The notes under the pieces are model-generated. The model made no database searches. It was not told the DNA's origin and saw only the letters and a list, made by a program, of their open reading frames with translations. DNA of 64,000 nt from Halichondria panicea. Taxonomy: Eukaryota > Porifera > Demospongiae > Suberitida > Halichondriidae. Where the stretch lies: NCBI RefSeq assembly GCF_963675165.1, contig NC_087389.1, forward strand, positions 4,882,620 to 4,946,619, read 5' to 3'. Of this stretch, positions 1 through 24,973 are shown one piece after another (within the stretch, counting starts at the first letter, position 1; every line of letters begins with the position of its first letter). The position numbers were made by a program, and so were the translations under genes.

Positions 1-1256
1 TTGAAGTTTATCGATCTTGGTTGCCAGAATGGTGTTGATCTCGGTGGTAATACTGTGAGCAAGGACTTGATACTCATGTGCAACAAACAGTTGGAGGTAT
101 TAATAAATATATTCATGCACTATAATCATTACACACTATTGCAGGCATTTGAGGAATCATGGAAAACTGCAATGCTGAATGAGTGGGAGAGAACGTGTTT
201 ACCTCCGCAAAATGAAGAGGTGACATAATTATGCATGGGTATGTACATAAACACTTAACTTCACTATAGATGACTCGTGTTTTCTACGAACTCTGGAATA
301 CGCTACTGTCGGAGATGATTGAGGTGGCTGAACTATTTGATGTGAGTGCATGTAGCACATTATTACATGTGAACGTTTGATTAATCTGACGTGTTCTTAT
401 TTGTAGCTCCACCAAACGGACAATGCACTGGACACTGAGAGTAATGTTGCCAATTACGAGATCTTCTTTCCAGAAATCCCCTCAAGCTACAGAACCACCC
501 AATGATGAGCCTACCTGTCCTATTGTACAGCCTACTGAAGTAACAGAACAAGAGGAAACAAGTGAGTTAACTTCATAATTACATTTAAGCCTTGGAGCTA
601 TAATAATAATATTATAATACTATACATGTATTTGTAGTGCAGCTATTGATTCAAATCTCACACCTGGCTTAATTGCAATACACTAACATGCTCAGTTGTT
701 GTGTCAGTTGCTGACTCTAGTAAAGATGACAGTGTTACGCCATCCCTCCCACCTTCATCTCCACGAACAGTTCAAGTTTGTTCAGGTATTATAAAAGCAC
801 TATCTCATATAATTATGGTTGTAACTCTTACAGTGCAAAGTTGGGCACTTTCATTCCATTACGATGTGCACGATTGCTAATTCACTCTATTATGTACAGA
901 GTTGACTCTCAGTGTTCTGGACAAGGAGCTCAAAACACTCACAAAACCAATACAGTTTGGTGTCAGTTTGGGCATTCCTCAACACCGACTGGAAGTCATC
1001 CAGCAAGACCATAGATTTGGTAAATAATATTGAATGGGTTTAATCTGCTCCTGCATGGTTTAATTGTTGAAGGCTTAATTTAATTTTAGTCTCTCCCCAT
1101 ACAGATACTGACGGTCAGAAGATTGCCCTGTTCCAGTTCATTGCCAAGAACCACAAGAGTCTAGTAATAACTTGGAGCAGTATTGCCGACGCTCTCCATG
1201 ACATTGATTATGGGGACTTGTCATCAGCTGTTAAGGGAAAATACTGCACTAGCTAG
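1..1256 (+). CDS. NLR-A: 3' end of an NLR-type gene, LRR tail plus C-terminal Death-like domain (partial)
   Basis: This is the 3' part of a NACHT-LRR gene whose body lies left of the window. Exons I read: 1-96 (last LRR, ending in the same NKQLE/K motif as NLR2 and NLR3), 145-219, 270-341, 407-440, 493-561, 708-785, 900-1019 and 1105-1256 (TAG). All junctions are GT-AG and phases agree, giving one open frame; the 407-440/493-561 split is needed to avoid a stop. The last two exons look like a Death-fold domain (SVLDKELKTL, GVSLGIPQHRLEVIQQDH, then VITWSSIADALHDID). Members of this family sense or scaffold innate signalling in the cytosol. The linker and Death exons differ from those of NLR2/NLR3, where the domain is in one exon. 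The neighbour RTK1 is convergent, about 680 bp away. Exon structure is inferred by eye. Confidence 0.72.
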
Positions 1257-1939
1257 ATCTAGTACGTAACTTTGCTAATAGACATTGTTCAATGATGTAT
1301 CACACGTATACTATAATGATTATGATGTATCAGAACCTTGTTAACGCACTAGAAAATGTGCAAAAGAATTGTCTCGTGATATTTACCTCCGAAAAGTGAA
1401 AAAATTCTGATTCGAACAACAATTCCCATATGAATTCTATATAATTATAGAGATGATTTGCAGTAGTGCATTAATTTGATCACAATAACAATGTCTTCAG
1501 TTGTTTCTCAGAAAAAATAAGTGGGGTATATATATATAACCCTTGTCTGACCAATTCATATTGTGAGTAATTTATTTTTAGTAAAGGTACATATAATAGG
1601 TGTGAAGCTCCTTCATCTATACTATAGGCCTCTACATACATTTGAGTACGTACAGTTATCATTATGACTTCAAGCGGAGTTACTATAATTAAAACCGACA
1701 TATGTAGTACCGTAGGTATAATCGATATCGCTATAATAATGTTTGCATATACACAAAATTATATTCACATTGACTTATTTTTCTTATACAGTATAATTAT
1801 AACTGCACCAAATATAAATGACTGTCACAAGGACTGACTGTATTTATTTATAATAGTGCACACAACATCCGTTACTTCAACATGACAATTACTATGGGCT
1901 CAGATCCATTATACGATATCCCAGTGAACCAGACATCAT
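1257..1939. other. AT-rich spacer between convergent NLR-A and RTK1
   Basis: No coding region is supported here. The stretch is AT-rich with several stop-dense frames and TATATA runs; it would have to hold both 3' ends and polyadenylation signals of the convergent genes. Confidence 0.5.
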
Positions 1940-4862
1940 CTACGAAGTTGTATTTAGTTCTTCTTTATTCTCGCTTGTGCTTGGTCCTTCACAGTACCTC
2001 CTCTGTAAGTCCATGTGCAGACAGTGGCCATTCTCCAGAGCTGTGCCCAGGGTTTGAGCCTCCTCAGGGTAGCGGCTAGTTTCACTGGCCTGCCACTTTA
2101 GGAAGATGAAGTCTGGCCGCTGTAGTTTTGTCACCAGATCACATGCTACAGGTCTGCACTCGGGATCAGGGTGCCTGCAGTTAGGGGGAAACAGTTTAAC
2201 AATCGATATAATTATATACTATAATTATTAGTGTAGCACATCATCCTTCCAGTAAAACATATTCTCTCCAAACTGCATTATATAGCACCAGAAACAACCT
2301 GTCATAGTCTATATTTTCAACAATTACGCAGGTGTTATATTCGATAGATAGATGGACGTACCAACAGTCGATCATGATGCTGTAGATAGGCCTGGGGCAA
2401 CCAGGGGGTGGGGGGAGCCTCTCACCACTGGTCACCGCTTCTATTGTCTGCAATAAGTGTGCTTATATAATTATAGCTACAGTTTCTCTTTCTTTTGTAC
2501 CTTTAACTATATTCCACATGAACATTAATACATATACCTCTGTGTTAGTGAGATGAGTGAACGGCTTCTCCCCCAGTGTCCATATCTCATAGAGCACACA
2601 GCCGTAGCTCCAGACATCACTGGCAGACGAGTACTTGTGATAGTTGATAGCCTCAGGGGCCGTCCACTTGACAGGGACTTTCCCTCCGTGGGAACGATAG
2701 TACTCCTCATTCTGAAGGTCTCGAGACAGTCCAAAGTCAGCAATCTGAAAGTAGGTGGCATGGAAGTACAGATGCATGTACACACTGCACTACACACACC
2801 TTACATATTCCCTCATCTGAGACTAGTACATTCCTGGCCGCCAGGTCCCTGTGAATATAGCCCTTCAAGGAGAGATAGCCCAACCCACATGCTACTTGTC
2901 GGGTGAAACTCATGAGCAGCTGTTTCAGTTCATACAGTGGCAGATCACCACTGGCAACACTGCATGAGTGTTGTGAGCCGGGTTAGCAACACAGGTATAT
3001 ATATTTCAGAGTGGAACCTCTCAATACACTTGGATCTTATAGGGCTTTTCCTGTTCATTGTGAGTAATAATAGTATTTGCTTCTAATTCAGGTGTATTGG
3101 GAGTTCCATGCATTACACTGTAAATGTAATTATGCATATACGCATGCTATCGCAGCAATTAAATGAACAGCTTACGATTGCCTGAGGGTGGACAAGTGTT
3201 GTAGTAGGTCTCCGTTATGCATCAGATCAACAACCAGTTTCAACTTTGGAGGAAATCAAATATCAATCACATGCACACAATGATTATTATATACCTTACC
3301 ATATCACCATCCATTATAATTCCTTGTATTCGCAGAATGTTAGCCTGCTTGAACTGGCCCATAATGGCCGCCTCCTGTAAGAACTTCACCTTGTCCTCTT
3401 TGGTTGCTTCCTCTGTCATAGTCTTTACAGCCACTTCACACAATATCTCTCTCCCTCCTTCCTCACGAAGCCACGCACCCTTGGTCACTGTGCCGAACTG
3501 ACCACTGCCTAGCACCTCCAGAAGTCTGTGTGAAGAGGGAGGGGCAGTGGTCATGCATGGATAGATACATTGTATAAGCTTGACTGTGCAGGCTAACCCT
3601 TACAGGTGCATGTATGGACAGATAATTAATTGTATACAGAAAGTCTTCACATGCATGTTTATCACAACCTAAAATAGTTCACACTGACTAGCAGATGCCC
3701 AGTTATCATAACTGAATTGAAACAATGTCAACCAACTGTTGAGTTTTTCTAGTATGAAGTTTCACAATGTGATTGGTACAATGATCATTGTCTCACTTGA
3801 CTTTGCTGGCTGGGATCAGCGGAATACTGAGTTCTGTGATCTGAAAGACAAGCTCCTCCTCCCGAGTGGCGGGTTCAAAGAATGGGTGGTCATAGTCGTG
3901 CTCGTAATCGGCAGGTTTTCTCTCACTACTGCCGTTATTGTCTGTACGTTATAAAGGGGAGCAATATTTGAATATCTTGGAATAAAAAGTTGACAAAATT
4001 ATAACATTCACTTTCCTGTCCCAAACACACAACATGCATGACCATCTGTAAAAACAGTAGCTATTGCCATGCTATAATTGTGTTGACTGTTGACTAACTT
4101 ACAGTGAAACATCAATTCAAAAGACTATACATAGACTACATACAAATGGTAATGCATCCCTGATAGGAAAAGTGGCTGTTCCCAAAGTTTCCATTACTCG
4201 AGGCTCCCAATAGCACAAACACAATCCCTATTAAATGAAGCTTGTCACCATGCAAATAAAATGAGTGGATGCCATAAAAAATTATTTTTACCTTCCAATA
4301 TGAAATAGAAATGATTATTGTCTCCCCCACCCAGCTGTGTCTTCTTTGCAGGCTCGTCTACCTCTGCATAATTATTGTCATCATATTCTCTCCGAGGTTG
4401 CCCCTCCACTCCGGCTATAGTTGTATATCTCTCCTCGATGGCAGGTGCTTCAGGTCTACGACCGCTGGGTCTCTGCACTAGAGTGTGTCTTCTTTGATAC
4501 TTTGGTTTTAACCTTCGTCTCCAGTAGATGCAGCAGACTAATGCAGTCACTGCAGCAGCTATTACTATGATAAATAACGATATGAACAACGGGATATTTT
4601 GGACACCATTACAGAAAAACTCATCGGGACATTCTGTTACGTGTGGAGAAATAGTTGGTGTCGATACATCACATGAATGCAGATAAGTTTCTGTAAGTGT
4701 TGAACTTGAAGTTGTTACTGATGGCATTATGGTAGACTCAGACAATGGCTGCATTGTTGCAGAAACGGTTGCTCCATGAATGCTTGATGTCATACTTGTG
4801 TTCATCATCACAGTAGAACTAGCTGAGTTAGTGACATTAGAGGTGATCATCATCACTGTCAT
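1940..4862 (-). CDS. RTK1: single-pass receptor tyrosine kinase, eight exons, apparently intact
   Basis: Exons on the minus strand: 4862-4292, 3941-3797, 3525-3300, 3243-3176, 2959-2800, 2744-2538, 2447-2362 and 2174-1940. All introns are GT-AG and the phases join to one 565-aa frame. The protein has a short Ser/Thr-rich ectodomain (residues 1-89), a membrane helix at about 90-113 followed by RRRLK, a Tyr-containing juxtamembrane tail (YTTI, YAEV), then a full kinase domain: GSGQFG loop 245-250, VAVK Lys273, alphaC Glu290, HRDLAARN (Asp375), DFG (Asp393), two activation-loop Tyr 405-406 and APE 419-421. Every catalytic residue expected of an active tyrosine kinase is present. No signal peptide follows the chosen ATG, and an in-frame stop lies just upstream, so a separate leader exon may be missing. 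Ligand unknown; family is an RTK but the subfamily is not recognised. Confidence 0.85.
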
Positions 4863-5330
4863 TGTGACTCAATGAAGTTCTTGATGTTTTCAATTTTGAG
4901 AGGCAAGTTGCATGTGTGTGAGAACTCTTCAATCTATGGTGAGATGTGAAAATCATAGCAAGGGAAATGAATAAAACACCAGCCCCTCCTCCTACTTTTG
5001 CTGGACCTGCCTACTGAGTGCATGCAGGCTAATGGTGAGTCTATCTCTATTCTAGAGCTCTTAACAGTGTGGCATGATCAATATATCTAGCCTTGTAGCT
5101 AGAGTATAATCTTCCTGTGAGTGAGCTTGTGAGCAGCACAAATTATGTAGAAACAATCAGTGCATGGTACAATTAAAATTTCTCGGGTGTATCTAAAAAA
5201 TTGTTGTCCCCTGTTCAGATGCATGTATTGTCAGATGAGGCTGTGTGGTGAGTAGCTCTATCACAAGTCAGTGGAGGACCAGGAGAGGAGCATCCTATAG
5301 AGAGGAAAAGGAAGATACAGCATACCATTA
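4863..5330 (-). other. RTK 5' flank conserved between copies
   Basis: This stretch is matched in order at 10561-10985 (RTK2), and its right-hand half at 25040-25160 (RTK3). It contains a hydrophobic minus-strand reading segment near 4940-4990 that could be part of a leader exon, but I could not join it to the RTK1 frame with convincing splice sites. It probably holds the promoter and first exon of the kinase gene. Confidence 0.35.
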
Positions 5331-5477
5331 TACAAGTGAGGGAGTGGCTACACAAACTCTTGAATAAAAACACAGCTCGACACCTTATAATGCCTGATTA
5401 TAATCGAGAAAAAAACAAGCTTACGTACATAGAAATTGGCAGGCACACTATTACGATCCTATTTATAAATTTCTTCA

Positions 5478-6390
5478 GCTGTTTCCAACAGCATCCCTGT
5501 ATAATGTGTTCCACTGGCAAACCAGCAGAATACACCCCAGTTTATGAGCTAGGTTGCCAATACAGTGGACATTCCTAGTGATGTCACTGCATGTCCAGAC
5601 ACTCTCATCAATAAACGAAGGCTAACTGAGCTTCTCTCAAACATTACTTGCAGAGCACCCTCCCTACAGCTAGTGACAAGGCTACTTGTAACAGCCATGC
5701 AGTGCACACAAATAACAGATCGATCAACATACAACAGGTTAGTGTCGCCATCTTTGTCAGTAGAATGTATAGATCTATAGTGTTCTTTAAATACCGTAAT
5801 CACTATACTTATTATATTACACACAGCCTCTATACTGCAATGCAAGACTAATGCTTTACCATTTAACTGGTGTCACTGAAGGAGATACCTCACAAGATGC
5901 CCTCACTTCATATCCACATACCATTCACTCAGGTATATGTGTGGATAAGTTGCATGTATGTGTCATGAGCTTTTGTTCATTGAATTTGAGGTGTTGTTGT
6001 ACTTTTAAATGAAGAAGAAATTTAATGTCTATGTCAAACATTGACGGAGATTCTGCTCATTAACCACACCCTTTCCTTATCCCAAGAGCTGGTGGACCAA
6101 GGACAGTGACCATTTAAAAATTGAAAGAGAATACAAAAGTGACCGACTCGCAACTTAATTGACACTGTGACCGACATGATCGTTCTGGCAGCTGACTTTG
6201 ACAATGTGGAGACCTAACCTGCAGCTACAACTGGGACGAGTCCTGCTGAACATATATCTTTATCATTTGACATTCAAACAGCGACGGACAAGGCCTTGAG
6301 ACTGTACAGAGCTCTGCATGGTGGAGATTTTATTGAGAATCGGAAAGGAAGCACTGGCATTTAAAATTTGTCTCGCAGTAAAAAAAATAA
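5478..6390 (+). pseudogene. NLR-B remnant: linker and Death exons of a dead NLR gene
   Basis: The sequence aligns by eye with the NLR2/NLR3 linker exons (5545-5735; Pro-Ser-Asp-Val and INxR motifs recognisable), the short exon near 5870-5935, and the single Death exon (6088-6385). It is interrupted by stops and deletions: for example the segments matching IEELKER and the N-terminal half of the Death domain carry in-frame stops, and part of the helical core is missing. No NACHT or LRR exon remains. It sits convergent to RTK2 in the same arrangement as NLR-A/RTK1 and NLR2/RTK3, so it is best read as the decayed NLR partner of the second module. Confidence 0.7.
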
Positions 6391-7916
6391 CTGAATCAGT
6401 AGTCGTATAATTGTATAATAATTATGATGTATCAATTCATCATGGAACATGCAGGAAACGTGTGGTGTGAAACAGGAGAAGATTTCTATAGTTTTAATTT
6501 TAGGGTTTTTTACTTTGCATTAATGAAAGGGCATGGCATTATATGAAATGTTGGTGTTATATACAGTGTTTGAATCCAGTTCTTCTTTCTCCTTGCGTGT
6601 GCTTGGTCCTTCACAGTACCTTTTCTGTAAGTCCATATGTAGACAGTGGCCATTCTCCAGAGCTGTGCCGAGTGTTTGAGCCTCCTCTGGATAGTGGCTA
6701 GTCTCACTGGCCCGCCACTTTTAGGAAGATGAAGTCTGGTCGCAGTAATTTGGTCACCAGATCACATGCTACTGGTCTGCACTCGGGATCAGGATGCCTG
6801 CAGTTATAGGGGGAACTAATACGAACTTCGTAAAAATATATAGAGCACATCATGGCCTTCCAATAAAAATGTTCTCTGGCTATGATTTTAAACAACCATT
6901 CCCTACGATTATCGGTACGACCGGATGCGAGAATCAACCACTCCCTCGGATTTTCATGAGCCGCCAAGAGCGCAATATACACAAGGATTTTTGTAGTATT
7001 GTAACACCTAAGACTTGTCATCGTCTCTATGCGACAAATGATTACACGTTTTGATCTTTTGATAGATGGACGTACCAGCAGTCGATCATGATGCTGTAGA
7101 TAGGCCTGGGGCAACCAGGGGGTGGGGGGAGCCTCTCACCACTGGTCACTGCTTCTATTGTCTGTAATATAATTAATTACCATCCAGTAAAATTTGTCAT
7201 GTGATGTTTTTACTATATGGAACCAAGAAATGTTAAATGATCATAATTATCTTTGATGTTTGTGCCTTTAATTAACTCCATATGAATACAGATGTGTAAC
7301 AGTATACATACCTCTGTGTTAGTAAGATGAGTGAACGGCTTCTCCCGCAGTGTCCATATCTCATAGAGCACACAGCCGTAGCTCCAGACATCACTGGCAG
7401 ACGAGTACTTGCGATAGTTGATAGCCTCAGGGGCCGTCCACTTGACTGGGACTTTTCCTCCGTGGGAACGATAGTACTCCTCATTCTGAAGGTCTCGAGA
7501 CAATCCAAAGTCAGCAATCTGAAAATAATAAGTGGCATGGAAGTATACAGATGCACATATACTACACTAAACACACCTTACATATTCCCTCATCTGAGAC
7601 AAGTACATTCCTGGCCGCCAGGTCCCTGTGTACAAAGCCCTTTAAGGAGAGATAGCCCAACCCACTCACCACTTGTCGGGTGAAACTCATGAGCAGCTGT
7701 TTCAGTTCATACAGCGGCAGATCACCACTGGCAACACTGAGTGTTGTGAGCCAGGGATTTAAATTAGCAATGCAGGTATAACATTTCAGAGTGGAACCTC
7801 TCAATATACATACACTTGGATCTTAACTCCTTAAGACTTAAGGGCTTTTGAAATGCAAAATGAGTATAATGGTATGTGCATCTATTGAGTTGCATTTGGA
7901 GGTTCCATGCATGCAC

Positions 7917-8078
7917 GTAATTGATATTTGATTTCCTCCAAAGTTGAAACTGGTTGTTGATCTGATGCATAGCGGAGACCTACTACAACACTTGTCCACC
8001 CTCAGGCAATCGTAAGCTATAGCTGCTGTTCATTTAATTGCTGCGCTTGCATGATATCCACAATTATACATTTACAGT
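7917..8078 (+). pseudogene. Inverted RTK2 exon (KLVVDLMH exon flipped to the plus strand)
   Basis: About 160 bp including the 68-nt exon reading KLVVDLMHSGDLLQHLS plus both splice borders lies in plus orientation, while all other RTK2 exons are on minus. In RTK1 (3116-3270) and the RTK3 scrap (about 24645-24690) the same exon is on minus. The flanks on both sides match RTK1 without inversion, so this is a local, clean inversion of one exon, derived in RTK2. Confidence 0.85.
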
Positions 8079-8427
8079 GCACACAATGATTATTATATAC
8101 CTTACCATATCACCATCCATTATAATTCCTTGTATCCGCAGAATGTTAGCCTGCTTGAACTGGCCCATAATGGCCGCCTCCTGTAAGAACTTCACCTTGA
8201 CGTCCTCTTCGGTAGCTTCCTAGTCTTCACGGCCACTTCACACGGTATCTCTATCCCTCCCTCCTCACGAAGCCACACATGCACCCTTGGTAACCGTGCC
8301 GAACTGACCACTGCCCAGCACCTCCAGCAGTCTGTGTGAGGGGGAGGGTGGCAGTAAACAGTTGCATGCATGGACAAATACATTGTATAAGCTTGACCGT
8401 ACAGGTTAACCCTTACAGATGCATGGA

Positions 8428-8504
8428 GAGCCTCGATCCCAGACCAAGTTTTCGCTTTTAACGGTTAGGCAAACAAGCGAAAACTCGGCCTGGGATCGAG
8501 GCTA
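8428..8504. mobile_element. 77-bp MITE with GCCTCGATCCCAG termini
   Basis: Near-perfect palindrome with ends related to TAGCCTCGATCCCAGGCC and an inner GCGAAAAC arm. It is flanked by ATGCATGGA (8419-8427) and GTGCATGGA (8505-8513), a probable 9-bp target duplication with one mismatch. RTK1 lacks the element at the matching place (about 3605-3622). Same termini as the elements at 17917, 27314 and 47525. Confidence 0.75.
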
Positions 8505-9101
8505 GTGCATGGACAGATACATTAATTGTATACAGAGAGTGCTTTCACAGTTTATAGCATGCAGATGTCCAGTTATCATAACTGAATTGTCAACCACTAT
8601 TGAGTTTTAGTAACAAGTTTCACAATGTGATTGGTACAAGGATTGTCGTCTCACTTGACTTTGCTGGCTGGGATCAGCGGAATGTTGAGTTCTGTGACCT
8701 GAGAGACAAGCTCCTCCTCTTGAGTGGCGGGTTTAAAGAACGGTTGGTCATAGTTGTGCTCGTAATCTCCCTCACTACTGTTGTTATTTTCTGTACGTTA
8801 GGGGAGCAATAATTATGAATGTCGAGTGAAAATTTACAAAATTATAGCCAATACTATTGCAGTATATAATTATGATAAAAGTTTGTCAATGAACACTAAT
8901 TGTTTGAGCTTGGCATGTACAAAACTCCCTCACAGTTATACGCATGACTGTTTAGTTAAGTTCCACTATATAAATTGATTTTGTAGAAATACTGAAACTA
9001 AACTCTTAACAGTTTATAACCATTTGGGAGAAAGTTAAACTTTCACTATTGCCTCATCATACCAGCACACTTAGCCATTGTCCCTACATGTGTGTGACTG
9101 T

Positions 9102-9665
9102 TATGAGACAAACTAACTCTACGAATGGAGGTAGTCCTCTGGTATCAAGGAATGGCTGCAGGTGCAAGTACAGAGTGAGGTGGTTCTATTCCAAGGGAGC
9201 CTTTAATTTCTCGTTCTGGTCTGGGTTATGTTATTGACTATATCTTGTATTTCGGTGTTTCATGTGTTCCATTCACGATCTGATGTCAAATTTGAAATTC
9301 CGAAATGGCTTTTTGTTATTCCAGTTGTGTTTGGTTTGTTGGGATCTGTTTTCTCAGGACAGTTAGCCAACGCTAAGCTGGGGAACTACAGAGTGATGAA
9401 ATACAGTTTTGTATTGTTGTTTCTCTTTTGTTTGCTTTCTAGTGTCGTTGCCCTAGTTCCTGGCATTGCACATTACGTGTATGTTGTGAGTGCCTTGTAT
9501 TGCATTGGTGGGAGTCTCTTTATAGTAGCTGTGGTAGCATGCTTTGTTACATTCACTTTCCGGTCCCAAACACACAACATTCATGACTATCTAGCAAAAA
9601 CAGTAGCTGCCGTATATATAGCACGAAATTTTCGAGGCACTCAAATTTTGTGGAATGGCCTCTAA
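9102..9665 (+). pseudogene. Fragment resembling the N-terminus of an MFS/POT-type transporter, nested in an RTK2 intron
   Basis: The open stretch 9228-9665 encodes three or four hydrophobic helices around a loop reading SGQLANAKLGNYRVMKYS, which recalls the loop after helix 2 in MFS and peptide-transporter families. A short basic segment upstream (9102-9227; KYRVRWFYSKGAF) is in another frame, so a frameshift separates them. No later helices are present. The tail (9540-9610) is matched in RTK1 at about 4003-4055, where the rest is missing, so the fragment predates the duplication and was lost from copy 1. The family call is by motif resemblance only. Confidence 0.4.
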
Positions 9666-9988
9666 AAGCATTTTGTTCGCGCTATTTGGTTAAATGTTAT
9701 TGTGTCTTCCGTTAGCTAAGCATTTTGTGGACCGCTAAACCACGAAAACAGGCAAAATTAAGCCGCTGAACAATTGTGCGCTTTAAGTTATGTCATGCTT
9801 TGTGTGTATCTCATGAAAGCTTACAGTGGAACATATAAACTCAAAGGACCATACAGTCATGCAAAATGGTCATGCATTCCTTCCATAAAATATTGAGAAA
9901 AGTACTATTCGCATTAGTCAAAGCTCCCAATAGCACAAACACAACTTTTCCCCTGTAAATGAAGCTGTGTTGTACGGTACCAAATAAT
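9666..9988. other. RTK2 intron sequence after the transporter fragment
   Basis: Part of this stretch (about 9785-9960) matches the RTK1 intron (4095-4250). No gene is seen. Confidence 0.4.
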
Positions 9989-10985
9989 TTATTTTCTAAT
10001 AATATTATTGTCTCCCCCACCCAGCTGTATCTTCTTCTTTGCAGGCTTGTCCACCTCTGCATAATTGTCATTACATTCTCTCCGAGGTTGCCCCTCCACT
10101 CCGGCTATTGTTGTATCCATAGTTACCTCCTCAATGGGGGGTGCTGCAGGCCCATTACCTCTGGGTCTCTGCACTAGAGTGTATCTTCTATGATACTTTT
10201 GTTTCAACCTGCATCTGCAGTAGATGCAGCAGACTAATGCAGTCACTGCACCAACTATTGCAATGAAAAATAACGATATGAACAACGGGATATTTTGGAC
10301 ACCATTACAGTAAAACTCATCGGGACATTCTGTTACGTGTGGAGAAATAGTTGGTGTCGATAGATCAAATGAATACAGATCAGTTTCTGTAAGTGTTGAC
10401 GTTGTTACTGATGGCATTATGGTAGACTCAGACAATGGCTGCATTGTTGCAGAAACGGTTGCTCCATCGATGCTTGCTGTACGTCGTACTTGTGTTCATC
10501 ATCACAGTATAGAACTAGCTGGGTTAGTGACATTAGAGGTGATCATCATCACTGTCATTGTGACTCAATGAAGTTCTTGATGTTATCAATTTGAGAGGCA
10601 AGTTGTGTGTGAGATGTGAAAATCATAGCAAGGGAAATGAATAAAACACCAGCCCCTCCTTTTACTTTTGCTGGACCTGCCTATACTGAGTGCATGCAGG
10701 CTAAAAGAATGGTGAGTCTATCTTTAGATGATGATCAATATCTAATCTAGCCTTGTAGCTTGAGTATAATCTTCCTGCGAGTGAGGTTGTGAGCAGCACA
10801 AATTATGTAATCCTCAGTGGTCCAATTAAAAATTATCTTGCTAAAAAATTTTTGCAAGTGTCCCCTGTTTAGTTGCCGTCGTCAGATTGTGTGGTGAGTA
10901 ACTCTATCGCAAGTCAGTGGAGGACCAGGAGAGGAGCATCCTAGAGAGGAACAGGAAGATACAGCACGCCATTACGGGTGAGGGA

Positions 10986-13529: not shown

Positions 13530-14400
13530 ATTATCAGAAAGATGCGTAGCTAAGAAGCAGTAGCAGTTTTCTGCAGGCAACTTTGTTGCAAACTAGTCTA
13601 GAATAGCTACTCTGCCAGGATCTCTAAGTTTCGAACGGAGGAGTATACCAGCCAAGGCCCCGGCCCCAGCGAAGGATCATTTCACAAGTAAGCTCTGTGT
13701 GTGTATAGCGATCATCATTTTCCTAGTTCAGCCTTTATAAGCCTGATTTAATATGCTTGTCCACCTACCTAGATAGCCTCTGAGTGTGTGAAATATACTG
13801 GAAGAGTAGCTTAGTTAGTTTAGAGCCTGTTTTTAGAGTGTAGTCTACAACATTTGATATTCAATTATTATCTCTTTTTCAGCATTCGCCTCTTGCATGC
13901 AAAGAAAGATGCATAACTTGGAAACAGTGACAGTTTTCTTTATTCAACTTCGTAGCAAAATAGTCTACAGTAGTTACTGTGTCAGGATCTCCTGGTTTCC
14001 AACGAAACAGTCAACCAGCCAAGGCCAGAGCAAGGGATCACTTCAGAGGTAAGCTTTGTGTGCGTATATAGCAAGCATTATGTAGCTAGTACTTGCCTAG
14101 ATAGCTTATGAGTGTGTAAAGTATATACTTGTGTAGAAGCTGAGTTAGTTTAGAGCCTGTTTTTAGAGTGTAGTGTACAGTGTTTGATATTCAATTTATT
14201 TGTTTCAGTGTGGCAAAGAAAGATGCACCCCTTAGTAACAGTAACAGTTCTCTTCAAGCTACCTTGTAGTTCTATCTGAACAGTCGAACAGTCAACCAGC
14301 CAAGGACAGAGCGAGAGATTACTTTAGAGGTAAGCTTTGTGTGCGTATTATTAGCTAGCTGATAATACTATACGCTTACCTACGTAGCTTGTAAAGTATA
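13530..14400 (+). repeat. Three diverged tandem copies of an exon-like unit (about 310-370 bp)
   Basis: Copies start near 13538, 13904 and 14217 at a GAAAGATGC motif, run through CAGCCAAGG and end at a GTAAGCT splice-donor-like motif; copies 2 and 3 are preceded by TTTCAG-like acceptors. The middle copy is open for about 55 codons, but the first and third contain stops in the same frame, so conserved protein coding is unlikely. A spliced non-coding transcript or decayed exon array are both possible. Confidence 0.5.
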
Positions 14401-14637
14401 CTGGCTCCAGCAGTGTGTTGAAGCCCGAGTTTAAAATACAGAAGCCTATATGTACGCTCAGCAGTGTTGCAATGTAAAGGGGTTATCATTGATTTGCTTA
14501 GCTATCTGTTGGTCTCATCCACAATGTATTCTGTTATCAGCTGTGAAGAATGCTGGACACCGGAAAGTTTGGGCCAACAGATTGGTTGAGATGGTGCGAG
14601 TCCATAGGCAGGCCAGGAGTGGAACTGCTTACCGTAA

Positions 14638-14900
14638 GTGGTGTTTGTGTGCGTGTGTGCACTTGTGTGTGTATCTTTATGTGCGTGTGCGTGTGTCTGT
14701 ATATGTGTGCCCGCGCGAGTGTATGTGTGTGTGTGTGTCTGTATGTGTGCCTGCGCGGGTGTACGTGTGTGTGTGGCTGCCTGCGCGCGTGTGTGTGTGT
14801 ATCTGTGCACACGTGCGCGCTTGTGTGTATCTGTGTGTGTGTGTATTGGTGTGCGCACGTGTGTGTATTCACTATTGGTGCCCACGTGTTTGTGTGTGTG

Positions 14901-14931
<31 letters not shown>

Positions 14932-14960
14932 GTGTGCGTGCCCGCCCGTGCCGTGTGTGC
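14638..14960. repeat. Imperfect TG/CG dinucleotide-rich tract
   Basis: More than 300 bp of TGTG with CGCG and TATG interruptions. Long apparent reading frames on both strands, rich in Val/Cys or His/Thr, are products of the repeat. A potential exon with GTAAGTG donor ends just before it (about 14633). Confidence 0.9.
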
Positions 14961-16183
14961 TTGTGGCATGATACTTTATACCATGCTAACAATTTACATT
15001 ATCAGTGCTGCCAAAAGTTAATTCTTATGCCTATAGTAAGCTTGTGTGAAGTTCCTGTTTGCTTCCAAGGTCAATTAGGCTCCTACTCATTATTAGGCTC
15101 ATGTACACATGTACAGAGGTTGATTGCATAATGAAAGCACCACAGGTGCTGATGCCTCGGTGGAGATGCCAAAGCTATACATAACATGAAGCTACTAATA
15201 GCTTTTATACTGATGAACATTTTTGCAATAATTATTTTGCTGCCATGCAGACTCAAAGAGTGGGTAATGATCGACCATGATTGTTGTTAAAAACGATCGA
15301 TGCCAAAAGTTCAAGTCTAAAATTAATGGCTGCCATCAACAGAGCCTTGCAGCTCTCTTCCTCACTCTTGCAGCTACCAATAGCTAGCGTTCTAGTGCAG
15401 AGCTAACTACTAAGTAGAGTAGTAACACTCGGTAAACAAGTTTGGCTACGTGCTCTTCTGAAAAGGCTGCAATGGCATTCCAAGTAAGCAAAACTAGGCA
15501 TAACTCGAGAACGAAGCATTATTTTGCAAATCCACGAATTAAAATCCAAGTAAACATGACTAGAAGCCTATAGAAACTCTTACTTGCACTTGATTCATCC
15601 TTGAGCAGCTGTAGCAGTCTACACACACAGACACACAGACACACAAACACACTACCGTATACCTCGCTTGCGCATGCGCACCGAGGCATAATAATGTTCT
15701 GACCTTTTCAGGGGAAAGCAAAGGCTTGTTGGGTTTATGAGTGTACTGTTTACTTGTGTAAGGACATTTTCTTCCCAACATAATAGGCTTGTTGGTTGTG
15801 TTATGCTCCCCAGCTAGGATTAGGTCACAATTTGTCATTAGTTGGCTTGTGTGATTAGTTTGGTTGTGTGTTTGCCTGTTATGCATTGTAATTCTCTGCC
15901 CAAAGTTGAATCTTTTTATGAACTCTCAGTTTGTTGTAGGATCACAATTACTTTATATGTGCCTATGAGTGCCATTGCATGTAAGTTTGCTTGTGGGAGC
16001 CTGTACATAAGGTTGCATGATTCATAATTTTTTGTCACCCTCATATGAGATGTACTGTACTTTGTGTATGGCCATTCTCAGTATACTTCTTTAGGTTTAT
16101 TGGCTTGTGAGTTAGTGCTGTGTTACATGTATCTATACCCAGTGTGCTGTCTGTTATAGCAATTCAATTATAATTATGTAATT
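14961..16183. other. No gene recognised
   Basis: A short CA-rich tract lies near 15622-15652. No reading frame with recognisable domains or credible splice structure is seen. Confidence 0.4.
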
Positions 16184-16577
16184 ACCGTATATCTTCTAAT
16201 TTATCGGACACTTCTAATTACCCCGGACACTCTTTTGGGCAATTTTCGTTGTTCTAATACAACGGACACTCCATATACTTTAATATTACATTTGTTCTAA
16301 GTATCCGGACAATACCTTGAAAAGTTGAGTTACCATTCATAGACGGCAAGTAAGACTTAGAGTGCTGCAGTTCAATAGCTTTGAGTAGCTAGTTTTAGAT
16401 AGCTAGCTAGTGCAACTATTCAGTCGTACCTTGTTCTATTAAACTTAGCTAGCTCGCATGCAGCTGCTTGCTTGTTCTAATTATTCCGGACACTTCGCAT
16501 GCTCTATAAAAGTCTGTTCCAATTATACCCGGACAATTTCCAAAAGAATTATTTTTTGCTGTCAGAAGATATACGGT
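16184..16577 (+). mobile_element. MITE with six internal CGGACA motifs, copy 1
   Basis: A 394-bp non-coding element with terminal inverted repeats ACCGTATATCTTCT. It contains six copies of a motif of the form TTCTAAT-TA-N-CGGACA (C or A follows), three near the left end and three towards the right. Copy 2 lies in opposite orientation at 18075-18464. Confidence 0.8.
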
Positions 16578-17916
16578 ATATGGCTGAATGTTATTATTCA
16601 ATTTAGTATGTGTATTGATTGCATGATAATCTTTTGATCTTTTAGGCACCACCCCAAAGGTTACATTTAAAATTCAATTCTTTATGGCTGGCTTGTTGGC
16701 TGGTGTTCGCAGGTTCTGTGCTACTTGTGTGTAAGAACCATTGATTCTAGAGGTGATCTGCTTGGTTGGTAATACTCTTCTTCCTACATGCAGATCTGTG
16801 AAACAATCGTCATGCACTGCTATCTGCCATGGTACCACCACCATCTTATGGTTCTGAGAAGTCCCACTCACTATCACTACTATCCAGGATACCTCATCCC
16901 CTATGTACAGAGGCCTCTTTGTCATTGTTGTATACCATAGAATTAATTGTAATTGTAATTATTATAATGTATGTTCACTTTTTTGAGATTGATATTGATA
17001 AATACAAATTTCACACGAAATTTTAAGTAAATTTTTGATTGCTAACCTATGGTGATCGGACTCGGTATGGCTTCTGTTGACCTTCGAGAGAAGCCTTGCA
17101 AAGATGTGGAGCTCAGAGGTTGTAGCTTACCACAAATTAAATAAGAGTAGAGCAATGTGCACGGTTGAAACAAATATGTGTCATCCGCGGCGGTTACCAG
17201 CTTTTTCCGTAATTAGGCAAATTTGTGTCATCCGCGGTTGATCAATTAAAGCTACATGCTACAAAAATCAATAGTACAAGTCAAGAGCCTGCATCAGAGA
17301 AGGTTGTTCTTTCTCACTGTCAGTGTCTATATATTCAGCCAACATCACCAGCAGAAACTTGATCACACTCTAAATACCAGGTAGAAGACAAAAACAAAAC
17401 AATAATTAAACAATGGTTTCAATACAGATTTTTTTCGTGATAGTATAATTATTGTGCACTCTGCCTGTCACTCAGCTGCTCAGCAGAGAGGTCTTTCAGT
17501 GGTCTGAAGAGAATAAAGACAGCATTACGATCACACAGAATGATTTGCTAACTGGACTATATATATATACACATACACTGTGACATACCTGTATAGTAGA
17601 TATTGATATAGCTATAATTATAGTTATGTCAAATATCAGGCGCATCTATGCATGTTGAGTAAGTGCAGCGGAAATAGTTTCTACGCATGCCCGCGCCCAT
17701 TTGTATACACTATTTATCTTTGTCGGAGTAGACTGCCATGGGTCGTCGAGCATTTTTCTTTCCCAAAGTAACTTTTTTTGTCCTCAGGGCATGCATGGGC
17801 TCTTTTGGCCTTTACCGTACTCCCTCAAATCTATAGCTTTAATTTGTCTGTACATATGTATGTATATCTACATGCATGCATGAATGCAGATAATATACTA
17901 TAAAGCTAATAATTAG
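16578..17916. other. No gene recognised
   Basis: AT-rich; several short open stretches without domains. Nothing supported as a gene. Confidence 0.4.
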
Positions 17917-17957
17917 TAGCCTCGGCTCCACTGAAGTGCGGCCTGGGATCGAGGCTA
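17917..17957. mobile_element. 41-bp remnant of the TAGCCTCG MITE family
   Basis: Almost only the two inverted ends (TAGCCTCGGC and CCTGGGATCGAGGCTA) remain. No clear target duplication. Confidence 0.55.
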
Positions 17958-18074
17958 AAATTATCAATTTTCTCAGATTCGTTCATGCAAAATACTGAAG
18001 GGCTTCTCTTAGAAACCTATAGCTGTCCAAGTATCCTAACATCGTTCTCAAGCTGCACGGTACATATACCCGGT

Positions 18075-18464
18075 ACCGTATATCTTCTAATTTATCGGAC
18101 AGCAAAAATAATTATTTTGGAAATTGTCCGGATATAATTGGAACAGATTTTAATACAGCATGCGAAGTGTCCGGAATAATAAGAACAAGCAAGCAGCTGC
18201 ATGCGAGCTAGCTAAGTTTAATAGAACAGCTATAGGGTACGACTGAATAGTTGCACTATAGCTATCTAAAACTAGCTACTCAAAGCTATCTAACTGCAGC
18301 ACTCTAAGTCTTACTTGCCGTCTATGAATGGTAACTCAACTTTTCAAGGTATTGTCCGGATATTTAGTATAATATTAAAGTACTGGAGTGTCCGTTGTAT
18401 TAGAACAACAAAAATTTCCCAAAAGAATGTCCGGGGTAACTAGAAGTGTCCGATAAATTACGGT
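18075..18464 (-). mobile_element. MITE with CGGACA motifs, copy 2 (inverted relative to copy 1)
   Basis: About 390 bp, reverse-complement match to 16184-16577 over its whole length; the terminus at the right has lost about nine bases of the TATCTTCTA stretch. The two copies could pair as a 1.5-kb-loop hairpin. Confidence 0.8.
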
Positions 18465-19100
18465 ATATATAGCTCTCTCCATTTTCTAGAGTGCTAAGAA
18501 TAGCCGCAACACTCTATTTAGATTTATTGAGTGAATTGTGTAAAATTTCTGGCTAGACCCTCTATATATACACTACTCAAAACGGTTTACAACTGTGCAT
18601 GCTTGCCGTTCTTGCAGTATTGAGATTCTTGGTCTTATCCTTCAATCGTAGCAGCTCATTCACCTCAGCAGAGTTGGTTTGTGTTGTTTCATCATAAAAA
18701 GAGTACAATTCATCAGTCAGAAGGTCATTTAGAGCTGGCTATCCTCTGCCGACCATTGCCCAGGCTTCTCCATTTGACAGAAACACACTCAATACATATC
18801 TTGCAGCAACTGGCAACCGTCTTCTGCTTTGTTTTTACTTATGTTGCTATATATAATTATATGCTCAGCCAGAGGCCTTCAACCATGCACGCGCATGCGT
18901 TTTTCTTGTGTTAGCGTTTAACTGAACGAATCTAATTTCCTGAGGCACTTGACGACGTGTAATTTACTGGACCGGATATATAATAGCTGTACTATATAGT
19001 AAGAATAGCAGTATAATTATAGTAATAGTGATTATGTAGACGTGCATAGTCTAGAGTGTTAGTCATATAAATATCATAATCAAATTTCAATATTCTATCC
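18465..19100 (+). other. NLR2 upstream region, shared with NLR3
   Basis: The segment 18520-19100 is matched in order upstream of NLR3 (29838-30080 and 30492-31300, interrupted by a MITE) and in part at 27130-27310. A short open stretch at 18681-18914 lacks domains. It likely contains the NLR promoter and 5' exons, but I could not identify an N-terminal effector domain. Confidence 0.45.
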
Positions 19101-19187
19101 TCTGCTAGGTTTGCAACCCGATTTTCAGAACTTCAAAAATCCATACAAACATTGTTGTATAAACAGAAATTCAAGCATAGAATTAGA

Positions 19188-22100
19188 ATGGATAGATTCA
19201 TTGCCAGCATTCGCCGGAAATACGAAGAAAGACTCTTGAATCGTGAAGAACAATGGCCACCTGTTAGAGGGGACAGGCTCATCAACTTGCAGTTAGTGGA
19301 GGCTGAAAAAGAAGAAGGATTTAGAGCCGGCTTACCACAACATGGTACACCTGATGATAAGGTCAAACGTACTCCAATTCTCCATGACAACCTATTCAAA
19401 GTCGAAGAAGGTAGGAAACCAGTCAAGAAGCTCATCGTTGAAGGCAATGCTGGGATTGGTAAAACCACACTGTGTACCATGCTTGCTGAAGGGTGGGCAG
19501 AGGGCAAGATCCTGACACGATTCGACTGTGTTTTGTTATTTCCACTGAGAGAAAATCGAGTGTCCTCTGCCACAAGTCTTGCTAAACTGTTCAAACTTCT
19601 CCACTCCAGTAAGAAAATCCGAGCATCTGTTATAGAAGAGTTGGAGGAGAGAGAGGGAGACGGTGTCCTCATCTTAGCTGATGGCTGGGACGAACTCAGT
19701 GTAGAAAATCGTTCCAAAATATCCTTTCTGTATGACCTTCTATTTGGTGATGTTCTTCCATTTGCTTCTGTTCTCCTCACCTCACGACCTTCTGCTTCAG
19801 CTCCTCTTCACGACCTTCCTTCTGTGGACCGTTTAATCGAAGTAGTTGGCTTCAATGAAGATAATATAAGACAGTACATAGTATCAGAGTTTGAGCAATT
19901 CCAAGAGAAAGCTTCTTCTCTTATCGAGCAGCTTGAGAACAACCCAGTCATTCAGAGTGTGTGTTCTGTGCCCCTCAATTGTGCCATTGTTTGTAACTTG
20001 TGGCACACTTTAGACCAAGAGCTTCCTCGTACGCTAACTGAGCTGTACACTCAAATTGTTCTTAGCATTATCTTTCGCAATGCCAAAAAGAAGTTATCTG
20101 ATTGTCTATCTCTAAGTAGCTTTGACAAGATTCCAACAGATCTACAAGACACATTTTGGTTGATCTGTGAGTTTGCCTACAAGTGCTTATTATTAGATCA
20201 GCTGGTTTTCTCAGAAGCTGAATTGTCCTCCCACTTGCCCGAAGTTGGTGACAAGTTGCATTGCTTTGGTTTGTTGCAGTCTGCACGATCACTTCTACTT
20301 GTTGGCCATGGTCTGTCTTTTCATTTCGCTCACCTGACCATCCAGGAGTTCTTGGCTGCCCTCCATCTTGCTACTCTACCCAATGAGGAGAAACTGAAGG
20401 TTGTTGAGGCTCACGCTATGAGTCGCCGGTTTGATACGGTGTGGAGATTTATGTTTGGTCTTGCTAGTAGTTGTAGTGATAAGGTGATCCGTTTGGATGA
20501 TAGTTTGATGGATAAATTTCTGTTTCTGATGGTTAAAGAGTTCAGAAAGTTGCTTTTATGTCTTGTGGCTTTCGAAGCTTCAGATCCTAAGTTTTCAACA
20601 AAAGTTTGTAAAATGTGTCGAGAAAAACTTAGTCTAAACAATAATATTTTAGACAATGATTTCATTCCCTTTGAGCAGAGGAAATTTGATAGTCGCATAC
20701 ATTGTGTAGCTAGGTTATATGTTCTTCGTCATGCTGCACAATTTGATGATATGGTTATCGAAATACATGATTTTGTAATCGACGATAAGCTGTTGAAGGA
20801 ACTAACTGATATACTATGTAATGCAAATGGTAAACTGCAAGTTCGAAGCGTAATTTTCAAGGAGATTAAATTGTCTGAAGAAGGTGTTGCTGATCTATTC
20901 AAGAGAGCATCAGTTGCCTTTACAGCTTTAGATTACCTATTGTTGTGTGGAAGTAACTTCTCTAACATTATGTCGTCATTCATGCACACATCTTGCACTA
21001 GCCTGACACAACTGCACTTATCTCACAACCTTCTTGGAGTGTCTGGTATACAGTCATTAGAGACAGCTGTACAGTATGGTACTCTTATTAACCTGAAGGA
21101 CCTGGAGCTCTCCAACACCCTCACTGAGGATGCTGACGTCAATGGAGCTCTACTAACAACCCTCTTACAGTCCATTGCCTCTCACTGTCCTGATCTGAGA
21201 ATTTTATACCTCTCTAAAAACACGCTTGGCTTACCTGGATTATGTTCCGTTGTGGAAAACATTCCGTTAGTATTAAATGAAGTTTATTTATGGAATACCC
21301 ATCCTACCACTTCATTTCACTCAGAGCCTCAATACGCAGTCACCTGTGAGATGTTGAATCTTCACCCAAACTGTTTAACAACGATGGACTTGCATAGCTC
21401 TAATTTCCGAGGAACTGCTGGAACTCTTTTGCTGGCAAAGTTTCTTCAAGCATTTCAATCACTGGAACGTCTTGACTGCTCTAACTGTTCTCTCACCTCT
21501 GCCGACATCATAATGCTTATCCACCATCTTAAGTCCAATAATGTGATATGTAAGAATTTACATTGGTTGAATCTCAGGGCCAACTCCATTGTGGGAGTGA
21601 TGGCTCTCACTGAGTGTCTACCAGAGCTGTTTCCTAGATTGGACAACTTCAATTTCAGTGACCTGAGTGGCGTTCTTCTCCATGGTAATCCTGTGAGCAT
21701 AAGGCTCATAAATATGTGTAACGAACAGTTGAAGGTACCTCGATCGTTCATGGTTATATGTTGCGTTTATCTTAATAATTATGCATGCAGGCCTCAAAGG
21801 AATTAAGGGAAGCAGCAGTGTTGAATGAGGGGGAGAGAATGTGTTTACCTCCACAAAATGAAGAAGTAAGTAAATATTGATGAATACATAAACTTTTACA
21901 GTCTTTACTTATAGATAAATCATATTTTGCGTTCTTGGGATACGCTACTGTCGGAGATGATTGACATCTTCATGGACATGTGTAGCCCTTCTTCTGTGAG
22001 TGTGTCAATATTATTTTTTAACACTGATTATTCTGATTATATAATTATTGTAGATCTATTTGGATAATCTTCTTTATGATGATGATAATGACCCAGTAGA

Positions 22101-22990
22101 ACATCACCCAATAGATGAGGTTGTGGATACAGTAGACACTCCTAGTGATGTCACTGATCCAGACACTCTCATCAATGAACAGAGCTTCTCTCAGGTATCA
22201 CCAGTAGAGCACCACCCCACAGCTAGTGACGAGGCTACTTGTACTACAGCCCTGCAGTCTACACACGGAACAGACCAACATACAACAGGTGAGCATATGT
22301 CTGCATGTGTTTGGTATACGTATAATTATGTATAGCGCACACGGAAATACCATCGGATATCACTGAATTAGGAGATACATCACAAGATGTCCACACTTCA
22401 TATCCACATACCATAACCTCAGGTATGTGTGATCAGCTATACATGATTACAATATTATAATTATACAGTAAACCGCATTAATATAATTTTTGAGCTTATG
22501 CTCGATCATTGAATTTGTAGTGTTCTATGCATGTATGCATGCATGGGTTTGTATTTATATATAGAGAGCATGTAATTATGTCAAACAATTTTATCAATGT
22601 CGGAGTTTCTGCCTCATTAACCGCACCTCTTTCCTTCTCCCAGGAGCTGGTGGACCGAGGACTGTGACCATTGAGGAATTGAAGGAGCGTACAAAAGTGA
22701 CTGACTCTCAACTTGACACTGAAATTAAAGAGACTGACATGATTGTTCTGGCAGCTCACTTCGACAATGTGGAGACCTACCCTGTACAACTGGGACTGAA
22801 CCCTGCTGAACATCAAACTGTTAGATCCTTATCATTGCAATATGACATTCAAACTGCGATGGACAAGGCCTTGAGACTGTGGAGACAGCATAATCCAGGG
22901 GCCGCTACTTACAGAGCTCTGGTGATGATTTTGTTGAGAATAGGAAAGGAAGCATTGGCATATGACATTTGTCAGTCAGCAGCTAAGTAA
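19188..22990 (+). CDS. NLR2: NACHT-LRR protein with C-terminal Death-like domain
   Basis: Exons: 19188-21734, 21791-21865, 21915-21995, 22054-22288, 22336-22422 and 22644-22990 (TAA). GT-AG junctions and phases agree, giving about 1123 aa. Start set at the ATG of MDRFIASIRRKY, which is shared with NLR3; the frame is open a further 80 bp to a TGCTAG acceptor, so an upstream exon is possible. The NACHT ATPase has Walker A GNAGIGKTTLC (about residues 86-96) and Walker B GVLILADGWDEL (about 159-170). Winged-helix/linker follows, then ribonuclease-inhibitor-type LRRs (LTQLHLSHNLLGVSGIQSL and similar) to about residue 849. After an acidic linker comes a single-exon Death-fold (IVLAAHFDNVETYPVQLGL ... 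ATYRALVMILLRIG). Predicted cytosolic pattern sensor or scaffold. Convergent with RTK3. Confidence 0.88.
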
Positions 22991-23259
22991 GTGAACCAAT
23001 GGTTGTACTAATTATTTATCAATTCATCGTGCAACATACAGGAAACATGTGATATGCAACAGGAGATCCATTTAACTCCCTATATATACAATTAAAGTGT
23101 TATCCATCATTTCATAATCATAATTTTATTTTGCTTAATGCAATCATGATTAGCATGCTGAACACCTTAAAGCTTCACTGAATGAAGCACAGCATTATAT
23201 GAATATAACATCTTTAAGGAAATATTAATGAAATATTAATGTTGGTGTTATATACAGTG

Positions 23260-24973
23260 TTTGAATCCAGTTCTTCTTTCTCCTTGCGCCTGCTTGTGGT
23301 CCTTCACAGTACCTCCTCTGCATGTAAGTCCATATGTTGACAGTTACCATTCTCTAGAGCTGTGCCGAGGGTTTGAGCCTCTTCATGGTAGAGGCTAGTA
23401 TCACTGACCTGCCACTTTAGGAAGATGAAGTCTGGTCGCAGTAATTTGGTCACTAGATCACATGCTACTGGTCTGCACTCGGGATCAGGATGCCTGCAGT
23501 TATAGGGGGAATTAATGCAAACTTCGTCATCATGGCCTTCCAATAAAAATGTTCTTTGGATATATTTTTAAAGGATCATTCAAAATAATTATTGTCCCTA
23601 ATATTATAATTATATACATAGGATTTTATGGACAATTTCATGGACCAAACTGTAGTATTTGTAACGTAAGATCTAGACTCATCGTCTCTATAATGCAACA
23701 TGTACAGATGATTAAACGTCTTGATCTTTTGATAGATTGAACGTACTAGCAGTCGATCATGATGCTGTAGATAGGGCCTGGGGCAACCAAGGGGTGGGGG
23801 CAGCCCCTTAACACTGGTCACTGCTTCTATATTGTCTGCAATATATAGCTACTTAGCTAATTGCAATCAGTATAAGATGTTTACCATAATTATAGAATCC
23901 AGAAATGTTAAATGATCATAATAATTATTGATGTTTGTGCCTTTAATTAACTCAGTGGCGCAATTTCTCAATGGGGGGGACTCTAGTTTTTTTTGTATGC
24001 AAAAAAAGTACGTCTATCTACATAGTGCAGCTTGATAAGCTATCTCTACTTAATAGCTTAGAATGATGAGGGGGGGCTCTATGTAGCCCCGGAGCCCCCT
24101 TCCTACGCCACTGTAACTCCATATGAATATAGAATTAATTGTGTTGCACTATATATACATACCTCAGCGTTAGTAAGATAAGAGAACGGCTTCTCCCCCA
24201 GTGTCCACATCTCGTAGAGCACACAGCCGTAGCTCCAGACATCACTAGCAGACGAGTACTTGCGATAGTTGATATAGCCTCAGGGGCCGTCCACTTGATA
24301 GGAGACTTTCCCTCCGTGGGAACGATAGTACTCCTCATTCTGAAGGTTTCGAGACAGTCCAAAGTCAGCAATCTGAAAGTAATAAGTGGCATGGAAGTAG
24401 TACAGATGCATGTACACACTGCACTACTTTCAAGGAGAGATAACCCAACCCACTTACCACTTGTCAGGTGAAACTCATGTGCAGCCGTTTCAGTTGATAC
24501 AGCGGCAGATCACCACTGTCAACACTGAGTGTATGGTGTGTGTGTGTGAGCGATACAGGTACATAAATAAAGAGTGGAACCTCTCAATTTATTGAAATGC
24601 TTATAGTGAGTAATTTAATGATAATAATTATGTGTTTCTACAGATCAACAACCAGTTTCAACTTTGGAGGAAATTAAGTAATCACGTAATACACATGCAG
24701 TGATTATCACCATACCATATCACCATCCATTATAATTCCTTGTATTCGCAGAATGTTAGCCTGCTTGAACTGACCCATAATGGCCACCTTTTGTAAGAAC
24801 TTCACCTTGTCCTCTTCGCTAGTTTCCTCCGTCATAGTCTTCATGGCCACTTCACACGATATCTCTCTCCCTCTCTCCTCACGAAGCCACACACCCTTAG
24901 TAACCGTGCCGAACTGACCACTGCCCAGCACCTCCAGCAGTCTGTGTGAAGAGGGAGGGGGGGCAGTGGTCAT
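23260..24973 (-). pseudogene. RTK3: truncated, decayed RTK paralog
   Basis: Counterparts of RTK1 exons: N-lobe 24945-24717, a scrap of the KLVVDLMH exon near 24645-24675, a broken catalytic exon near 24430-24520, DFG/APE region near 24375-24165, and the last two exons near 23830-23745 and 23500-23304. The sequence encoding HRDLAARN and the following strand is deleted (abrupt junction near 24425). The alphaC Glu is replaced by Lys (FLQKVAIM), the DFG exon has insertions and a frameshift near 24290, and the penultimate exon is frameshifted. Juxtamembrane and membrane exons are absent: the N-lobe flank runs directly into the 5' flank. A MITE sits at 23953-24113. It cannot encode an active kinase. 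Confidence 0.87.
23953..24113. mobile_element. 161-bp MITE with CAGTGGCG ends and TAACT target duplication
   Basis: Ends are CAGTGGCG and CGCCACTG; TAACT is repeated immediately outside (23948-23952 and 24114-24118). The RTK2 intron at about 7268-7282 shows the empty site with a single TAACT followed by CCATATG. Non-coding. Confidence 0.85.

Follow-up and report, generated by a model that had tools for sequence, protein, structure and literature searches.

Contig NC_087389.1 of the sponge Halichondria panicea (assembly GCF_963675165.1; 131 Mb in 39 contigs), here called C13, raises the question of why genes for a NOD-like receptor (NLR) and for a receptor tyrosine kinase (RTK) lie tail-to-tail several times over, and whether they do so because the two receptors work together or because a piece of DNA holding both was copied. 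We analysed a stretch of 64,000 nucleotides (C13:4882620-4946619, the window; positions within it are prefixed with w). Three such neighbourhoods, NLR-A/RTK1, NLR-B/RTK2 and NLR2/RTK3, lie in the window, and a fourth (pair 4) lies ~0.2 Mb away, where NLR4 (C13:5097690-5102387), with a NACHT-leucine-rich repeat (LRR) exon and a domain that we call DD1, faces RTK4 (C13:5102641-5106022). DD1 and DD2 are our own names for two domains that are both encoded downstream of the LRR exon. Judging from sequence comparison, the adjacency is very probably a matter of hitchhiking, in which a neighbourhood within an NLR array would have been copied by segmental duplication with most copies decaying, and we see no good sign that the NLR and the RTK work as a pair.

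Homology of the NLR/RTK junctions

The anatomy of the locus was worked out by self-comparison of the window and, for 166 kb of DNA around it and the surroundings of 5.1 Mb (60 kb) and 4.0 Mb (30 kb), by exon-by-exon tblastn and DNA comparison. Segmental duplication should leave homology running through the intergenic DNA, and such homology is present at three of the four junctions, all except NLR-A/RTK1. From pair 4, the region C13:5101522-5103742 aligns to w22117-24427 in a single piece (78%, 2.4 kb), which starts in the NLR tail, crosses DD1 and the intergenic DNA and ends in the RTK. The NLR4/RTK4 junction also aligns to NLR-B/RTK2, in two pieces, C13:5101523-5102466 to w5551-6479 (65%) and C13:5102578-5103277 to w6522-7241 (77%). 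As the NLR-B/RTK2, NLR2/RTK3 and NLR4/RTK4 junctions are homologous, they descend from one ancestral junction. A tree of the RTK exons, rooted with the next relative RTK5 (C13:3998k), agrees with the junctions in placing RTK2-RTK4 apart from RTK1 with a support of 0.94. An earlier note on this DNA had reported three tail-to-tail copies of a plus-strand NLR and a minus-strand RTK of one family. Its reading of order, orientation and shared flanks stands, as does the single RTK family (RTK1, RTK2 and RTK3 share 90-94% identity in exon DNA), with the correction that the NLR-A/RTK1 junction is not homologous to the rest.

The copies in the window are close together and partly broken, as they might be if the assembly had joined haplotype copies in tandem. 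Such an artefact is extremely improbable, given the 6-10% differences in exon DNA between the four copies, a deletion, inversion or breakpoint peculiar to each, and the distance of pair 4 from the others.

The copied unit comprises the last exons of the NLR (linker and DD1) and the RTK, and the NACHT exons group differently. NLR2 and NLR4 share 95% DNA identity in DD1 and 90% in the NACHT exons, and the DD1 of both is only 69-70% identical to that of NLR3. The NLR4 NACHT is nearest to that of NLR5077 (93%) and groups with those of NLR5077 and NLR4985 with a support of 0.99. Synonymous divergence (dS) is 0.20-0.28 for the NACHT exons, 0.17 for RTK1-RTK4 and 0.13 for the DD1 of NLR2-NLR4, as if the RTK block had spread inside an NLR array that already existed. 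Because NACHT and DD1 have different histories, as seen in their trees and in dS, we reject the co-duplication of a whole NLR with an RTK. Of the two readings that the earlier note offered for its co-duplicated unit, linked function or mere shared duplication, the evidence favours the second, which the three homologous junctions record, with an NLR 3' end instead of a whole NLR in the unit.

The order of events that we infer begins with an RTK gene that would have come to sit tail-to-tail behind a DD1-bearing NLR within a tandem NLR array. The block consisting of the last NLR exons, DD1, a short intergenic stretch, the RTK and the RTK 5' flank would then have been copied by tandem or segmental duplication, yielding three block copies on C13 and a decayed one on contig C6. 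RTK1 would have been joined to NLR-A via a separate junction, and purifying selection would maintain the RTK as an independent gene while the pairing hitchhikes.

The homology of RTK1 to the other copies stops near its 3' end, running from w1976 for RTK4 (97.5% identity across the first 122 bases) and from w1948 for RTK2 and RTK3. The two stretches covered by DNA comparison contain nothing that matches the DNA separating DD2 from RTK1. With a junction of its own and a separate position of RTK1 in the tree, NLR-A/RTK1 constitutes a second neighbourhood, which is either older or was made separately by a later rearrangement.

Integrity and distribution of the pairs

In none of the three window copies are both partners intact, because NLR-A has a stop, NLR-B is without a NACHT or LRR part, and RTK2 and RTK3 are broken; when pair 4 is counted, one pair in four is intact. 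The NACHT of NLR-A lies upstream of the window at C13:4880181-4881095 (its start corresponding to window position -2438), and its reading frame is interrupted by an in-frame stop at C13:4881876. Between RTK1 and RTK2, tblastn found no NACHT or LRR part. The idea that NLR-B is a decayed full NLR was rejected, with only a tail and DD1 being present, and we take NLR-B as a fragment produced by the duplication, though loss of a front part is possible. In RTK2 one exon (w7912-8079) is inverted, the first kinase exon and the transmembrane/juxtamembrane (TM/JM) exon contain stops, and the last exon shows a frame change. In RTK3 the JM and TM exons have been deleted, such that ~1.9 kb of RTK4 corresponds to ~57 bases at w24990-25047. 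RTK1 carries HRDLAARN and DFG motifs and, alone among the RTKs of the window, shows no breaks in the exons compared.

Between RTK1 and RTK4, five kinase exons with 301 codons hold 24 nonsynonymous and 30 synonymous changes, for a ratio of nonsynonymous to synonymous divergence (dN/dS) of 0.21; the ratio for the TM/JM exon is 0.45. Fisher P values from approximate site counts are 3.5e-8 and 0.014, respectively. These ratios indicate that the RTK is kept by purifying selection, and the gene looks functional in its own right.

Genome-wide, the best 102 of 265 and the best 129 of 257 candidates were scored in two NLR searches and the best 150 of 288 in a kinase search, so the neighbour counts apply to listed loci only. 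The 132 kinase loci are 156 matches minus 6 that were not listed and 18 that were second halves of a split exon. The 147 NLR loci are the two NLR searches merged by hand, where one C7 locus was entered twice and two others from C7 are missing; C7 has no listed kinase locus. The cut-offs of 8 and 10 kb used below were picked after the spacing had been seen. Four of the 132 kinase loci lie within 10 kb of any listed NLR, and these are RTK1-4; since NLR-B is without a NACHT, RTK2 is counted via the NACHT of NLR-A, 9.75 kb away. The genome-wide check that the earlier note proposed finds no such neighbours elsewhere among the listed loci, with none for the other 128. Within 25 kb the count rises to seven, the additional three being diverged RTKs at 4857-4864k. 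The TM/JM exon of the RTK occurs at four places in the genome (RTK1, RTK2, RTK4 and a stray fragment at w52070), all seven candidates having been scored.

The surroundings of relatives on either side point the same way. RTK5 has no NLR match in the 30 kb read around it, its nearest listed NLR being 61 kb away. No listed NLR lies near either RTK array, that on C4 with 21 loci (counted by the first kinase exon) or that on C17 with 14. Two C6 NLRs with a DD1 of 90-91% DNA identity have no RTK in the ~3.4 kb read behind each and none listed within 25 kb, and their homology stops at the end of DD1. Five NLR loci of the same array (NLR3, 4985k, 4989k, 5064k and 5077k) likewise have no RTK behind them by tblastn in the stretches read.

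An alternative is that the two form a functional receptor pair, with the RTK as the sensor in the membrane and the NLR as the intracellular one; their linkage would be kept by their joint work, as in tomato Pto/Prf. We consider this very unlikely, with pair 4 as the one candidate. The purifying selection on RTK1 and RTK4, the position of all four RTK copies behind NLR sequence and the open state of both genes of pair 4 in the exons compared would fit it; the absence of an intact pair from the window, the C6 and same-array NLRs without an RTK, and the fact that the NACHT parts were not inherited with the RTK all count against it.

Chance was assessed with 42 clade NLR loci (matches of at least 51% identity, with split pieces merged); the DNA behind 8 of these was read, as was ~3.4 kb behind each of the two C6 NLRs, and the others, as well as the C4 and C17 arrays, were judged by exon searches. 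The listed clade NLRs at 4.88-5.31 Mb all have one orientation and the family RTKs on C13 all have the opposite one, so any new NLR-RTK neighbourhood there is automatically convergent. When the seven C13 RTK loci were slid together along C13 in 20,000 trials, at least four neighbours of any kind arose in 4.9% of trials and at least one convergent neighbour within 8 kb in 8.5% (P=0.085). Because three of the four junctions are copies and not independent, figures for a single event are fairer, and a single RTK placed at random inside the 4.74-5.32 Mb NLR cluster has a convergent clade NLR no more than 8 kb away in 12.5% of cases. The single-event figures neither prove nor exclude an attraction between NLRs and RTKs.

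Several observations weigh against the hitchhiking of a copied neighbourhood. In the same trials, at least three convergent NLR neighbours within 8 kb arose in only 1.3% (P=0.013), and 1.8% of random positions on the whole of C13 would bring a single RTK within 8 kb of a convergent clade NLR. All four RTK copies, fragments apart, lie behind NLR sequence, and NLR-A/RTK1 shows the same arrangement at a second junction, with RTK1 being the first of the four to branch in the RTK tree. The chance figures and this separate junction would suit a repeated, independent association, in which RTK and NLR families are drawn to the same places by, e.g., insertion preference or chromatin; the homology of the other three junctions and the C4 and C17 arrays lying away from listed NLRs oppose it, and we regard it as very unlikely. 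Only at pair 4 are both genes open, as judged by the absence of stops from the exons compared; RTK1, likewise intact by that measure, stands beside a truncated NLR-A. The nearest NACHT to that of NLR2 is that of NLR3 (91%), with a grouping support of only 0.34, and gene conversion could distort both trees and dS. The DD1 tree leaves the RTK-linked copies ungrouped: the DD1 of NLR-B groups with those of RTK-less NLRs at C6:338k and C6:347k (0.90), and that of NLR2 with the copies at C6:2617k and C4:6900k, both outside NLRs (0.76). This untidy tree suggests that DD1 has also moved without the RTK, or has lost it.

At C6:2617k, a decayed last exon of the RTK lies convergently behind the DD1 copy. 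It yields three collinear matches, with 51.8, 43.7 and 26.5 bits; since 1000 dinucleotide shuffles reached at most 31.0, the weakest match would not be significant by itself. The 4 kb of DNA ahead of this DD1 match no NLR query except, at the DNA level, in a short linker exon of ~100 bases, and the copy adjoins a Kelch frame and a reverse-transcriptase piece. Its sister copy at C4:6900k shares its strand with Ig and kinase frames and with a COR-like one (28.8 bits, short of the cut-off of 35.3). The linker and DD1 exons at the two places, where no NACHT was found, have a DD1 of 89-91% DNA identity to those of NLR2 and NLR4. It is conceivable, though very doubtful, that linker-DD1 is a mobile end-piece carrying a death domain, which has been exchanged among NLRs and has entered other genes (on C6 next to the Kelch frame, on C4 in a group of Roc/COR-, Ig- and kinase-like frames), with the RTK captured behind it and at least pair 4 being a working membrane/cytosol pair with shared convergent 3' regulation.

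A genome-wide search with DD1 gave 691 first-look candidates, of which the best 150 were scored and all 150 matched, many at 40-50% identity on C3, C5, C6 and C7. To judge from these matches, DD1 is a very large domain family in this genome.

Gene content of the window

The features of the window are listed in Table 1.

Table 1. Features of the NLR-RTK locus, by position in the window (w) or on C13.
Feature	Position	Strand	Basis or remark
NLR-A, 3' end (end of LRR exon and first tail exons)	w1-332	+	tblastn, DNA comparison
DD2 of NLR-A, two exons	w899-1253	+	death-fold-like by analogy only, no Pfam match
RTK1	w1943-4862	-	seven exons open in tblastn
Shared RTK 5' flank	w5197-5373		copies at w10859-11403, w25049-25560 and C13:5106370-5106794
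NLR-B, ~1 kb NLR tail and DD1 fragment, with stops	w5551-6479	+	tblastn, DNA comparison
RTK2, pseudogene	w6565-10558	-	tblastn, DNA and self-comparison
DD2 remnant behind RTK2, with stop	w11436-11852	+	
NLR2, NACHT-LRR exon	w19188-21806	+	872 codons open from Met
NLR2, DD1	w22643-22987	+	open; 95% DNA identity to NLR4 DD1
RTK3, pseudogene	w23277-24946	-	stops in three exons
DD2 remnant behind RTK3, with stop	w25656-26081	+	
NLR3, next NLR of the array	w31411-33955	+	RTK3 is on its 5' side; no RTK found on its 3' side
Stray RTK TM/JM exon fragment	w52070-52188	-	without adjoining NLR

The NACHT domain is clear in both NLR2 (81.5 bits) and NLR3 (83.4 bits; cut-off 26.7), and C-terminal of it NLR3 has LRR_6 (31.7 bits, cut-off 23.4) and NLR2 has LRR_4 at 18.8 bits, below the cut-off of 27. 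No N-terminal death-fold was found by Pfam in the NACHT exon, which alone was searched. DD1 scores 18.1 bits against Pfam Death, below the cut-off of 22.6, and DD2 matches no Pfam family. DD2 pieces lie beyond RTK2 and RTK3, and we therefore considered whether the RTK sits inside an NLR intron. This is not supported: the stretch read behind RTK4 shows no DD2, and the 4985k NLR ends in a DD2 as well.

RTK1 has a tyrosine kinase domain (PF07714, 277 bits), a small additional kinase exon at about w3180-3250 (read by eye) and, in the TM/JM exon, one hydrophobic stretch seen by eye. Among solved chains, 43 of its 44 best matches are Eph receptors (best 2.8e-66), the top entry being named EGFR (60 of 2646 matches listed). 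The likeness to Eph receptor tyrosine kinases is limited to the kinase domain. The RTK1 exons found hold no Pfam domain in the extracellular part, and no ephrin-binding, fibronectin or SAM domain, with further 5' exons being possible; the extracellular part seen is short and Ser/Thr-rich.

Inside RTK2, a hydrophobic frame of 152 aa without a Pfam match lies between two exons (w9207-9665, + strand), and a short inverted repeat seen by eye (w8430-8510) is perhaps a small mobile element. Upstream of NLR2, an inverted repeat of ~390 bases (w16197-16578 and w18074-18460; 90% identity, arms ~1.5 kb apart) perhaps represents mobile element ends. Two nearly identical transposase frames of 556 aa at w57018-58688 and w60476-62146 (- strand) match DDE_Tnp_1_7 (233 bits, one tested), a family that presumably includes piggyBac. 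Each adjoins a minisatellite with a period of 154-159 bases (w58659-59975 and w62117-63951), and the transposase-minisatellite unit recurs at ~98% at C13:4001914-4004344, ~2 kb from RTK5, and also at 4948-4956k.

Parallels and meaning

A literature search on sponge, NLR and RTK topics, in which most papers were judged by titles and the starts of abstracts, found no paper on NLR-RTK neighbours. The closest published parallel among the literature searched is the discussion, in PMC9579050, of plant clusters that mix NLRs with LRR receptor-like kinases (LRR-RLKs) or receptor-like proteins (LRR-RLPs), where indirect co-expansion through genomic clustering is raised and then rejected as the cause. 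Receptor kinases lie near NLRs in both cases, and the clustering explanation is the one that we favour for the sponge locus. In contrast, the plant clusters as described there span many loci in several species, whereas the sponge case is one locus in one genome, with four mostly broken copies and a tyrosine kinase.

Pto of tomato is described in PMC11537850 as an intracellular Ser/Thr kinase that interacts with Prf, and the title of a reference cited there has Prf embedded in the Pto kinase gene cluster. The likeness is an NLR linked to kinase genes; no such interaction is known for the sponge genes.

In the sponge Dysidea avara, PMC12909245 reports large NACHT-LRR families with near-identical chromosomal neighbours and proposes duplication as their source, and all three features also fit here. 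The death domain described in that article is N-terminal, in contrast to DD1 and DD2, and the term "tyrosine kinase" occurs nowhere in its main text.

The arrangement at this locus is real, and its cause looks ordinary. An eye-catching "module" that joins a membrane receptor to a cytosolic one can arise from one neighbourhood that was copied and then decayed, and counts of linked pairs consequently need correction for common descent. The different groupings of DD1 and NACHT suggest that the 3' ends of NLRs in the array have been exchanged independently of their NACHT cores, an exchange that may help to diversify receptor signalling. Pair 4, if co-regulated, would be a test case for linked receptor pairs.

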